Positions 43,015-52,318 of a stretch of 64,000 nt of DNA are shown in pieces (positions within the stretch are counted from its first letter, which is position 1; each line of letters opens with the position of its first letter). Below the pieces are notes generated by a model, which ran no database searches, was not told the DNA's origin, and worked only from the letters and a program-made list of their open reading frames with translations. Source of the DNA: Rubrobacter tropicus. Lineage in GTDB: Bacteria; Actinomycetota; Rubrobacteria; Rubrobacterales; Rubrobacteraceae. The translations under genes and the position numbers were made by a program. The stretch spans positions 1 to 64,000 of the forward strand of contig NZ_CP045119.1 in assembly GCF_011492945.1 (NCBI RefSeq), read 5' to 3'.

Positions 43015-43830
43015 GTGGCCGGAGACGCCGTGAAAGAAGAGCGGATGCAGTTTGGGGGGATGGCCCGCTGGGACGGGCTCGATCTCTTCGGCCCCAACTA
43101 CATGAGCGTCGCCTACCGGAAGGGCGGGGAGATCCACGTCCAGGTAGAGCCGTCGAACATCCCCAAGATAGAGAACCCGTTGGCGTTGAAGATCTCGCGC
43201 CTCCCGATAGTCCGCTCGGTCTTTCTCTGGGGCAGGCTCCTGATCCAGGTCGTCGGATCCATCTGGACCCTCGTCTTCTTCGCCGCCACGATGGCCGTCC
43301 TCTGGCTCTTCGTCCGTCTGATGGAGTTCGGCAGCGGTGGAGGCGGCGCCCTTGGCGGCCTCTTCTCCTTCTTCGCCGCGTTCCCCATCTTGCCCATCCT
43401 GCTTCTCTTCTTCGCGGGGATGAAGCTCTCCCCGATAGGCCGCTACCACGGCGCCGAACACAAGGCCGTCGCCGCCTACGAAAAATACGGCGAGGTGACG
43501 ATGCAGGGGGCGAGATCCAGCAGCCGCATCCACCCCCGCTGCGGCACCAACATCCTGGTCTACATAGTCCTCGCGGCCCTCTTAGACCCCCTCATCGCCT
43601 GGTGGGGCTACGCCTTCCTCCAGTTCATCCTCATCTCGGAAGCCTGGTTCGTCCTCGGCCAGACCCGCCCCTCAATAGCCATCGGCAACCTCTTCCAGAG
43701 GTACCTGACCACAACAGAACCCCGCCGCGCCGAGCTAGAAGTAGCCGTCGAGTCCATGAACCGCCTGCTCGAAGCTGAGCAGGGCCGCGCGGGCGACGAG
43801 AAGAAGGTCCAGGTGCCGGCGCGGTACTGA
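43015..43830 (+). CDS. DUF1385-family membrane protein
   Basis: 271 aa from GTG 43015 (AAGGGA upstream; GTG 43030 with GGAG is a close alternative). The DUF1385 core starts MQFGGMARWDGLDLFGPNYM. Two to three hydrophobic segments occur (about 75-100, 115-140 and 195-215). MKLSPIGRYHGAEHKAVAAY carries the conserved metal-type His/Glu pattern (HGAEHK), and SRIHPRCGTN follows. The role is unknown; family members are sometimes called metal-dependent enzymes of the membrane. The longer open frame to 42937 overlaps accC and lacks a ribosome-binding site. Confidence 0.88.
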   Translation: MAGDAVKEERMQFGGMARWDGLDLFGPNYMSVAYRKGGEIHVQVEPSNIPKIENPLALKISRLPIVRSVFLWGRLLIQVVGSIWTLVFFAATMAVLWLFVRLMEFGSGGGGALGGLFSFFAAFPILPILLLFFAGMKLSPIGRYHGAEHKAVAAYEKYGEVTMQGARSSSRIHPRCGTNILVYIVLAALLDPLIAWWGYAFLQFILISEAWFVLGQTRPSIAIGNLFQRYLTTTEPRRAELEVAVESMNRLLEAEQGRAGDEKKVQVPARY

Positions 43831-43898: not shown

Positions 43899-44132
43899 TC
43901 AGTCCACGGGGCGCTCGTCGAAGAGATCATCTGTTTGCAGGCCACGTTCCACGAACCATTCGTCCGGGTAATCCGCAGATATAAGTTCAGCGTTGGCCTC
44001 GTCCAGCTTCCTTTGAGCCTTACCGAGCATCGCCCCCGCAATCCTGGTTGCCTCGGCCAGATTGCCGGGACCGAAGACGAAAAGCGCGATGAGTCCTATG
44101 AACAGGGCCTCCGGGGCGCCCACGCCGAACAC
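43899..44132 (-). CDS. TatA/TatB-like twin-arginine translocase protein
   Basis: 77 aa from GTG 44132. It has the TatA/B pattern: a short N-terminal stretch, a transmembrane helix VGAPEALFIGLIALFVFGPG (the FGPGNL hinge is characteristic), then an amphipathic helix (LAEATRIAGAMLGKAQRKLD) and an acidic tail, DEWFVERGLQTDDLFDERPVD. The tail is longer and more acidic than in TatA. It is the last gene of a three-gene minus-strand unit after the Cys-rich polyprotein and a small membrane protein, 17 bp downstream of the latter. A dedicated role in exporting that protein is inferred. Confidence 0.8.
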   Translation of the reverse strand: MFGVGAPEALFIGLIALFVFGPGNLAEATRIAGAMLGKAQRKLDEANAELISADYPDEWFVERGLQTDDLFDERPVD

Positions 44133-44149
44133 GGTTGGTCGAACCGCCG

Positions 44150-44431
44150 TTATCCGGCAAAAGCGGTCAGCTGTACGGCCCGCACGACCATTGTCAGAAC
44201 CATCAGTGCCACGCCGCCTATCCTGAGCGCGCCGGCTAGCCTTGTACGGTCCCGGGGTAGGATCTCTGCCAGCCCGAACCCCAAGACCGCGGTTCCGAAG
44301 GTCAGGTACGCGAGCCTGTCGAAGAGCCCCTCCCTGAAGAAGATCGTTTCGACGAAAAAGTAGCACGCTATCAGTAGGAAAACCCAAGCGCGTCTTCCGC
44401 CTGCGGGTTCCTTGAAGATCTTGCCCGTCAC
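44150..44431 (-). CDS. Small membrane protein in the Cys-rich polyprotein unit
   Basis: 93 aa from GTG 44431, chosen for the strong GGGAGG 5 nt upstream; a longer frame to 44491 lacks one. Three hydrophobic segments: about residues 14-30 (AWVFLLIACYFFVETIF), 38-57 (LAYLTFGTAVLGFGLAEIL) and 67-88 (LRIGGVALMVLTMVVRAVQL). No family recognised. Placed between the polyprotein (72 bp upstream) and the TatA-like gene (17 bp downstream). A role as immunity, assembly or export partner is possible; this is inference from position only. Confidence 0.7.
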   Translation of the reverse strand: MTGKIFKEPAGGRRAWVFLLIACYFFVETIFFREGLFDRLAYLTFGTAVLGFGLAEILPRDRTRLAGALRIGGVALMVLTMVVRAVQLTAFAG

Positions 44432-44503
44432 GAGCCTCCCTTCTCGCCCTCTGGTGTATCTAAATTCTGTCCTGTAAGAGAGCTGGCCCAACAGATTTAT
44501 CGT

Positions 44504-45724
44504 TTAGTGGCACCAACCGCACCTCTTGCAACCGTAGCCTCCTCTGCAGCACTGACGCACGACGGCCCACGTGCAGATAACAAGCGCGCACGCGGCGCAG
44601 AGCAGGTAGCCTCCCCAGCAGGTGATCGCGCACGCCCGGCACTGGTACGCGACGCAACCTATCGACTTGAGGTATTTGCAGGAGCTGTACCCGTATGCGA
44701 TATCGCACGGGTTGCTGCACTTCCTGTCTGGGAGACAGAAGCCGCTACCCCGTGTCGGAGGCAAAGAGTCGGCTTTATCCAGCAGGATCTGACGGTGTCC
44801 GTTCGAACTGGCCTCCTCCAACACCAGCCCTTCGCCTTCCTGCCTGTAGAGCATAGCCTCCGACTTGGTCTTTACCTGATCCTTAGGCAGGAACCTCGGC
44901 TTCTCGTACTCGTAGTAGACCAGCAGACGATCGCTGTGCGGCATTACGAAAGAGAGGGCCACCATGCCGTCTCCTCCCGACAGGACGTGCCTAGCGCCCT
45001 TCACGACGGCCAGATCGCCTGAGAAGGTAGGTTTGCCGTCGGCCGACGAGATCTCTCCGTTGTCGAGGTTGATCGCCTCCAGAATCATGCGGCGGTCCTT
45101 CCCGGCGTCTGCGATCTCCGCTTCGACGCGGCGGCCGTTCAAGACTTTGTCCCGCCAGCCTTTTCCCATCAGGTTCACAACGTCCGGGCGCCTGGCCACC
45201 CTACGGGCGGTGTTCGCTAGCTCGGCCCCGGTCAGTTCTTGGTAATCGACCGAGGAAGCTGCATCGGCCGGCGAAGGTAACTTGCCGGTGCCGGACAAAA
45301 CAGACAACGCTACCGCAGCCCCACCCACACCCTTGAGAAACTGTCCGCGGGAGAGGCCCGATACCGCCCTGATGGCGGCCGAATCTGCCAACTCGAGATC
45401 TGCGTTGGCCGCTCCCAGCACCTGCATGACCCGCCACGTCGGGACGAGACCGAGGGCCCGGCTCAGACGGGCGCCCATTCGCACGCCGGTCCAGGCCTTC
45501 ACCGGACCACCGTTGAGCTCGATAAGCGTAGGAGCCCAGGGCGCGTCATCCCCGAAGGCTTCCCTTCGCCAGTGCTCCATCATGGGGTCATTGAGGCTGA
45601 GAACCTCTACTTTATCTACGACGCGCTCCTCGATCCGCCGGGCCAGCTCGCTACAGGTCATGCATCCGGCGTCGAAGCCGAGCACCAGTCTACGCCCGCC
45701 GGGTTGGGCCTTCGTCTCCTCCAC
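44504..45724 (-). CDS. Thioredoxin-like / Tat-signal / 16-cysteine polyprotein (halocin-C8-like layout)
   Basis: 406 aa with four parts. (1) Residues 1-110: thioredoxin-fold domain with CMTC at 21-24 and a cis-Pro-like APWAPTLIEL at 61-70. (2) Residues 123-145: Tat-like signal, SRGQFLKG followed by a hydrophobic run. (3) Residues about 158-325: soluble middle domain containing LNGRRVEAEIADAGKDRRM and MPHSDRLLVYYEYEKPRFLP. (4) Residues 330-405: a 76-residue Cys-rich tail with 16 Cys (330, 336, 340, 349, 357, 362, 365, 369, 376, 379, 384, 392, 393, 399, 402, 405) and hydrophobic stretches. The order Tat signal, middle domain, Cys-rich tail recalls precursors of halocin C8. Homology is not verified. 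GTG start with GGAGCGGGG upstream. No peptidase or maturation enzyme is seen nearby. Confidence 0.8.
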   Translation of the reverse strand: MEETKAQPGGRRLVLGFDAGCMTCSELARRIEERVVDKVEVLSLNDPMMEHWRREAFGDDAPWAPTLIELNGGPVKAWTGVRMGARLSRALGLVPTWRVMQVLGAANADLELADSAAIRAVSGLSRGQFLKGVGGAAVALSVLSGTGKLPSPADAASSVDYQELTGAELANTARRVARRPDVVNLMGKGWRDKVLNGRRVEAEIADAGKDRRMILEAINLDNGEISSADGKPTFSGDLAVVKGARHVLSGGDGMVALSFVMPHSDRLLVYYEYEKPRFLPKDQVKTKSEAMLYRQEGEGLVLEEASSNGHRQILLDKADSLPPTRGSGFCLPDRKCSNPCDIAYGYSSCKYLKSIGCVAYQCRACAITCWGGYLLCAACALVICTWAVVRQCCRGGYGCKRCGWCH

Positions 45725-45827
45725 GTCCCCCGCTCCTCTCGTCGTTCGCCTGCGACAATACGAACATCGGAAGAAGCGAGCGGGACCTTTAGCGGATGGG
45801 CTCCTCTAAGAGAAAGGGCTCGGCTGC

Positions 45828-46574
45828 CTAGACGGGCTGCTGCGTCGGGCGGATCAGGATCTCGTTGACGCTTACGCGCTCGGGCTGGGTCACGGCGTAG
45901 ACGATGGCGTTGGCTATGTCCTCGGCCTGCAGGATCTCCAGGTTCAGCAAGCCGCCCAGGCTCTCCCTGGCGTCCTCGTCCGTGATGTGGTCGGCTAGCT
46001 CCGTGGCTACCGCGCCCGGCTCGACGATGGTCACGCGGATGTTGTCCTGTAACAGCTCCTGGCGCAGGCCTTCGGAGATGGCGCCGACGGCGAACTTGCT
46101 GCCGGCGTAGACGCCGCTGGAGTCGCGGGTCACCTTGCGGCCGGCGACGCTGGAGATGTTGACGAGGTGGCCGCCGCCCTGGCGCTTCATCGTCTCTATG
46201 GCGGCGTCTGTGGTGTAGAGGAGGCCCAGGACGTTGACGTCGAACATGCGGCGCCACTCGTCGGAGAGGCCCTTGCCGACGCTGGAGAGGAGCATGACGC
46301 CGGCGTTGTTGACGAGGATGTCCACGCGGCCGAACTCCTCTTCGGCTTTTCGGATCAGGCCGTGCGCCTGCCCCTCGTCGGTCACGTCGCAGGACGCCGC
46401 AAGCACCCTGCCGCCGCCCTCTTCTATCCGATTGGACAGGTCGGCGAGCCGGTCCTCGCGCCTGGCCGCGACGACCACGGAGGCGCCCTCGGCGGCGAGG
46501 GCCTCGGCCGTGGCCTCGCCGATGCCGCTCGAAGCGCCCGTTATTACAGCTACCTTGCCATCGAGTTTGGGCAT
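45828..46574 (-). CDS. SDR-family oxidoreductase
   Basis: 248 aa classical SDR. TGASSGIG is at residues about 12-19, NNAGV near 88, ISSVAGRK near 138, and the catalytic YAGSK near 154-158. PGAVATELADH follows. Close in pattern to the clavulanate dehydrogenase/YdfG-like group; the substrate is not determined. It ends 103 bp before the polyprotein start and shares strand, but a joint transcript is uncertain. Confidence 0.92.
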   Translation of the reverse strand: MPKLDGKVAVITGASSGIGEATAEALAAEGASVVVAARREDRLADLSNRIEEGGGRVLAASCDVTDEGQAHGLIRKAEEEFGRVDILVNNAGVMLLSSVGKGLSDEWRRMFDVNVLGLLYTTDAAIETMKRQGGGHLVNISSVAGRKVTRDSSGVYAGSKFAVGAISEGLRQELLQDNIRVTIVEPGAVATELADHITDEDARESLGGLLNLEILQAEDIANAIVYAVTQPERVSVNEILIRPTQQPV

Positions 46575-52030: not shown

Positions 52031-52318
52031 CGGGCCGATCCGGATACCGCATCCTCCGAACACGCCCGACGGCCCGGTGCGAAGGGTGCGTAGCCCAAAC
52101 GGACTAGAATTTTATCCACCATACGAGCTATTGCGCCTCGTATAGCCCGTGACTAAGATTCTTGGACGAGGTTTCGGCTGGTAGAGGCCTAGATTTCCGT
52201 TCCTTGTCTGGGCACCGGGGCGGAGGGAGCCAGTGGTGCAACCGTCTACCGTTTTTGCCAACGCGAACCCGTGCCGGCGCTGCAACCACGCCGGCCAGGA
52301 GAGGATTGCTACGGCCGG

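Follow-up and report, generated by a model that had tools for sequence, protein, structure and literature searches.

We identified in Rubrobacter tropicus a cassette that is best explained as one allele of a polymorphic bacteriocin or toxin-immunity system, whose precursor carries a thioredoxin domain in cis and a Tat-derived signal. The probability of this whole explanation was estimated at about 75%, and the polymorphic toxin-immunity nature of the system, taken by itself, is very probable. A conserved carrier, variable cargos with breakpoints, cargo-matched membrane genes, orphan genes and presence or absence of the cassette at its site were all observed. The front half of the precursor is shared by relatives and the Cys-rich end is swapped together with the membrane protein. 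This pattern resembles a so far undescribed family of antibacterial toxins that can be exchanged for one another, each with its own immunity protein. Only the fulvocin-type and M23 cargos found on relatives suggest that the C-terminal domain may be toxic.

Organization of the locus

The window analysed was the first 64,000 nucleotides of contig NZ_CP045119.1. The toxin, membrane and TatA-like ORFs are all encoded on its minus strand. The features of the locus are as follows.

43036..43830, plus strand: DUF1385-type membrane protein, conserved, flanking the insertion site on the left
43899..44132, minus strand: TatA/B-family protein (PF02416), 77 aa, locus-specific neighbour
44150..44431, minus strand: 93-aa membrane protein, predicted to have 3 hydrophobic segments and proposed to confer immunity (homologues at toxin loci)
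44507..45724, minus strand: 406-aa precursor of a putative toxin/bacteriocin, made up of carrier, Tat-type signal, middle domain and Cys-rich tail, stop codon at 44504-44506
44507..44737, minus strand: Cys-rich tail, residues 330-406, 16 Cys, of which 11 are invariant across tails
44738..45259, minus strand: middle (propeptide) domain, residues 156-329, Cys-free, predicted alpha/beta fold (AF2)
45260..45352, minus strand: Tat-type signal SRGQFLKGVGGAAVALSVLSGTGKLPSPADA, residues 125-155, Gly for the second Arg (TIGR01409 match and motif tally)
45410..45703, minus strand: thioredoxin-fold (DCC1-like) domain, residues 8-105, CxxC at 45653-45664
45744..45768, minus strand: conserved element GATGTTCGTATTGTCGCAGGCGAAC upstream of the toxin gene, an imperfect inverted repeat that is probably a promoter/operator
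45828..46574, minus strand: short-chain dehydrogenase (SDR), conserved, flanking the insertion site on the right

The 406-aa ORF (44504-45724) has a GTG start and a good Shine-Dalgarno sequence. In the protein, CMTC occupies residues 21-24, SRGQFLKG residues 125-132 and a signal-peptidase-like ADA residues 153-155. The 16 Cys of the tail lie between residues 330 and 405, and the remaining two Cys form the CxxC pair. The 93-aa ORF starts 72 bp past the toxin stop, also with GTG and with its own clear Shine-Dalgarno sequence. The first-pass annotation of this DNA had described a 406-aa protein with these two motifs and a 16-Cys tail, followed on the same strand by a small membrane gene and a TatA-like gene, and all were present as described. 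The 25-bp upstream element has inverted TTCG/CGAA arms and a single perfect match genome-wide, and it is kept upstream of the toxin at several filled sites (L030, L032 and L034).

A thioredoxin-fold carrier shared by actinobacteria

The 406-aa protein matched no Pfam or NCBIfam model, giving weak sub-threshold hits only. Whole-genome search found about 22-23 copies of the carrier gene family in 15 of 39 Rubrobacterales genomes. The N-terminal ~140 aa are about 50-61% identical in most Rubrobacterales copies, and the remainder of the protein differs. Beyond Rubrobacterales, relatives were found in Arthrobacter, Nocardiopsis, Actinokineospora, Virgisporangium and Microbacterium and in four more actinobacterial genomes. 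None turned up in the phages or viral contigs searched, and a plasmid search with the cargo part as query gave zero relatives. A thioredoxin-fold (DCC1-like) and Tat-type front is common to all family members.

Both Cys of the CxxC and the PTL of a cis-Pro-like APTL motif were invariant in 20/20 carrier domains, and the two Cys and the motif Pro stayed invariant in a wider set of 26. The carrier domain was modelled by AlphaFold2 at pLDDT 84 with the b-a-b-a-b-b-a order of a thioredoxin topology. Among its best 50 Foldseek matches most were thioredoxin-fold proteins, at modest E values of 2e-3 to 3e-2, and profiles of solved structures gave weak thioredoxin hits only. The domain shares the FD-x-x-C-x-x-C start, the cis-Pro-like motif and the fold with DCC1-like thiol-disulfide oxidoreductases (PF04134), but it is fused to a signal and a toxin, and PF04134 scored below the Pfam cut-off in all members (19.4 versus 27.8 bits in one relative). 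The proposal in the first-pass annotation that a thioredoxin-like domain is fused to a Cys-rich pro-protein is supported. The features of the 406-aa gene are beyond chance because the CxxC is invariant in all 20 carriers and 11 Cys are invariant in 11 tails.

Carriers also occur in arrays and as remnants. Within ~21 kb of one genome (L024 and L025, G015:C1:2228864-2250101) lie four complete carriers, a truncated one and a toxin tail that stands alone as an orphan, with a transposase-like ORF downstream of one of them. A decayed toxin gene elsewhere (L112, G016:C49:332496-332726) has a broken carrier and a Cys-rich tail that looks intact.

A Tat-type signal with a replaced second arginine

The signal of the 406-aa protein reads S-R-G-Q-F-L-K, with R-G where the Tat consensus S-R-R-x-F-L-K has R-R, and it scored 16.7 bits against TIGR01409, exactly the cut-off. 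Across 22 Rubrobacterales copies the second Arg position was occupied by Gly (14), Ala (4), Lys (2), Ser (1) and Arg (1), and the first Arg and the Phe of the motif were invariant. A true RR was found in 5/9 relatives outside Rubrobacterales and in 17 of the 19 other Tat-type signals listed for the R. tropicus genome. AxA-type cleavage sites followed the h-region in most copies. Judged by its sequence, the signal is Tat-derived. Because the second Arg is missing in most copies, Tat export is only a candidate route; we consider it reasonably likely for the carrier-borne cargo. Of the Tat-exported pro-peptide claimed by the first-pass annotation, the Tat-type pro-protein with a Cys-rich, bacteriocin-like C-terminus was recovered, but the signal is non-canonical. 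In the same genome, a 381-aa aldose-epimerase-like protein (L127, G000:C1:391442-391516) carries a GRGQFLRG signal without the usual second Arg, which hints that R-G signals are perhaps tolerated in R. tropicus.

Different cargos on one carrier

For the middle domain, AF2 predicted an alpha/beta fold with good confidence, most blocks having a pLDDT of about 75-94. It had no significant PDB match, with avidin-like hits at E>0.5, and it varies along with the cargo. The 11 invariant Cys were counted over the tail of the 406-aa protein and ten others, from Rubrobacter, Arthrobacter, Nocardiopsis and other genera. Structure prediction of the tail, a check suggested with the first-pass annotation, gave an unreliable model (pLDDT about 35), and the search of the cargo against solved-structure profiles returned chance flagellins only. 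The tail itself matched no named bacteriocin family. Among 396 actinobacterial genomes sampled, those with the tail scaffold all had the carrier as well, and the scaffold was found on no other proteins.

Other carriers bear other cargos. Those of Actinokineospora and Virgisporangium are joined to bacteriocin domains related to fulvocin C (NCBIfam NF033852, E=1.7e-25 and 2.6e-31). The R. tropicus tail is a different Cys-rich type, and the 406-aa protein did not match NF033852; its link to fulvocin is via the shared carrier only. A scan for the fulvocin-related domain in a 396-genome actinobacterial sample gave no hits, its control likewise staying silent. An M23 peptidase-like cargo (Pfam, E=1e-10) is carried by L036:1282-3084 and L037:8672-10420, and such an M23-fused carrier is a possible bacteriolysin. 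Additional cargo types were further Cys-rich or hydrophobic domains. Each complete cargo inspected had at least two Cys. Because Cys-poor M23 cargos share the carrier, the thioredoxin domain is not kept solely for Cys-rich tails.

Genes with different cargos showed 90-98% DNA identity from -150 to about +150 (+300 in some pairs), even across species. Identity then dropped to the background of 45-50%, a level reached at most about 150-375 bp from the aligned start. This mosaic of conserved 5' and divergent 3' DNA is the pattern expected from cargo exchange. A conserved N-terminal trafficking region joined to a variable C-terminal domain, which is characteristic of polymorphic toxins, was thus present. 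In five genomes of the R. tropicus genus, the cassette lies between the DUF1385 and SDR genes, with a gap of 1.8-3.0 kb and several cargo types. The site is empty in three siblings, with gaps of 40, 45 and 94 bp, and a gap of 19 bp was seen in another genus; one sibling (G022) with an empty site has a toxin gene at another position. The first-pass annotation had missed the interchangeable C-terminus and the fixed site of the cassette, and also the likely immunity role of the 93-aa gene.

A downstream membrane gene that tracks the cargo

A small multi-TM gene lies directly downstream of most carrier copies; no obvious one was seen directly downstream in the M23 types (L036 and L037), L077, L078, L079 and G096. 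Similarity between these downstream genes followed cargo similarity (Mantel rho 0.30; 6/5000 permutations, uncorrected for kinship) and not carrier similarity (rho -0.10). The best homologue of the 93-aa protein (E 1e-24) lies directly behind the toxin with the closest tail, in another genus (G015). Strong matches to the 93-aa family were confined to toxin loci, two orphan copies in L026 among them, and weak matches occurred elsewhere. Orphans of both kinds, as known from polymorphic toxin systems, were detected: immunity genes in L026 and L070, the latter a relative of the L031 gene, and a toxin tail beside L024. In the Rubrobacterales genomes, a survey of the kind proposed in the first-pass annotation showed that the tail and the membrane gene co-occur. 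The downstream gene is thus cargo-matched in the sense of sequence tracking, and the 93-aa membrane protein is likely the cognate immunity protein.

Alternative explanations

The first-pass annotation had proposed that a Cys-rich pro-peptide is exported via Tat and that a TatA-like protein serves it as a dedicated translocase component. The ORF concerned is a genuine TatA/B/E member (PF02416, 32.1 bits against a cut-off of 21), best read as 77 aa from a GTG at 44132 to 43899. It closely follows the membrane gene and belongs to the segment inserted at the R. tropicus locus, and a non-canonical R-G signal could require a special subunit. However, the gene is absent at the other family loci, no other TatA/B gene was found near a toxin gene in 39 genomes, and other genomes carry the R-G signal without such a neighbour. 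At least two more TatA/B genes lie at other positions of the R. tropicus genome. Because the TatA/B-like gene occurs at one locus only, a dedicated translocase is unsupported and we regard it as quite improbable; the gene is probably a neighbour picked up by the R. tropicus allele, outside the core system. The first-pass annotation had named as refuting a lack of co-occurrence among tail, TatA-like gene and membrane gene; this holds for half of the set, since only the TatA-like gene fails to co-occur with the others. The R-G signal also bears on a membrane-anchored, contact-type effector, in which a non-RR signal would serve as an uncleaved anchor and the cargo would act from the producer surface. 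Such an anchor would suit the missing second Arg in nearly all Rubrobacter copies and a hydrophobic segment behind a folded N-terminal domain. The AxA-type sites in most copies and the true RR in relatives speak against it, and the small soluble Cys-rich cargos suggest release, making this reading rather unlikely.

A single-gene system like that of halocin C8, with the middle domain as HalI-like immunity, the tail as bacteriocin and the membrane gene as an accessory, would explain the shared order of signal, soluble middle and Cys-rich C-terminus. The HalC8 precursor is Tat-exported and yields HalI and a 76-aa peptide (PMC11509114), and the middle domain here is predicted to be folded and varies with the cargo. 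A C-terminal Cys-rich stretch of ~76 residues in a larger Tat-type precursor, from which it is cut or would be cut, is common to both. The R. tropicus system differs in its 16 Cys of other spacing, the extra N-terminal thioredoxin domain, a separate putative immunity gene and polymorphic cargo. Neither the tail of the 406-aa protein nor 19 scanned members matched TIGR04449 (halocin_C8_dom), against which the HalC8 sequence scored 61.5 bits, and hhalign gave a probability of 0.1%. Membership in the halocin C8 family, to which the first-pass annotation had drawn a parallel, was rejected on these profile and hhalign negatives. With separate cargo-matched membrane genes as well, the single-gene system is unlikely. 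A redox or metal-handling protein, in which a thioredoxin-like domain is combined with a Cys-rich metal-binding tail and no toxin is involved, would fit the CxxC domain and the many Cys. However, the cargos include Cys-poor M23 peptidases and fulvocin-type bacteriocins, and cargo-matched membrane genes with presence/absence polymorphism fit conflict rather than housekeeping. We consider that function highly improbable.

Proposed mechanism and relation to known systems

For the polymorphic toxin-immunity system, we propose that the precursor is made in the cytoplasm and that the topology of the Tat signal would leave the thioredoxin domain inside. This domain may form or proof-read the tail disulfides in cis, before folded export; we rate such action in cis as an even bet. 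The shared carrier would bring its C-terminal cargo, one of many that can be exchanged, across the membrane. The folded middle domain and tail would be exported and cut at ADA155 and then before residue 330, giving a peptide of ~77 residues. The freed peptide may damage the membrane or envelope of close relatives, and the small downstream membrane protein would protect the producer at the membrane. The middle domain itself could be an immunity part. More tentatively, and with some doubt, the family may represent a widespread and so far undescribed actinobacterial bacteriocin class in which the carrier has a cytoplasmic thioredoxin-fold domain before its Tat signal and oxidises whichever cargo it bears prior to export. 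Foldase, targeting signal and toxin would then be combined in a single protein, matched by a cognate immunity protein in the membrane, and having G in place of R in Rubrobacter would adjust Tat recognition or redirect it.

Polymorphic toxins such as Neisseria MafB have a conserved lineage-specific N-terminal trafficking domain, an interchangeable C-terminal toxin, downstream immunity genes and orphan cassettes (Zhang et al., 2012, PMC3482391). The R. tropicus cassette shares the conserved trafficking front, the swappable putative toxin, the proposed downstream immunity gene and the orphans. Its carrier, however, is a thioredoxin fold with a Tat-type signal, its cargos are Cys-rich bacteriocin-like peptides and M23 domains and not nucleases, and its proteins are small. 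Neither 'thioredoxin' nor 'TAT' appears as a word in the available part of that text (PMC3482391). The pediocin operon includes PedC, a stand-alone thiol-disulfide oxidoreductase (PMC4919988). In PedC-type operons, as proposed for R. tropicus, an oxidoreductase is dedicated to a disulfide-containing bacteriocin; PedC is separate, whereas the R. tropicus domain is part of the precursor itself and precedes the export signal. No description of a thioredoxin-toxin fusion was found in the literature searched, which lay mostly outside subscription journals. If the proposed system is confirmed, the delivery modes of polymorphic toxins would gain a Tat-type carrier that brings its own thiol oxidoreductase, and small Cys-rich bacteriocins would be linked to the polymorphic toxin world. 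The carrier would also be a ready genome-mining handle for many disulfide-rich antibacterial peptides of Actinomycetota. The folding of disulfide-rich peptides before Tat export, and the dispensability of the second Arg in nature, would become testable.

Elsewhere in the window, a c-di-GMP-II-GAG riboswitch aptamer was detected at 52174-52256 on the plus strand (Rfam, 45.4 bits against a gathering score of 40 bits).
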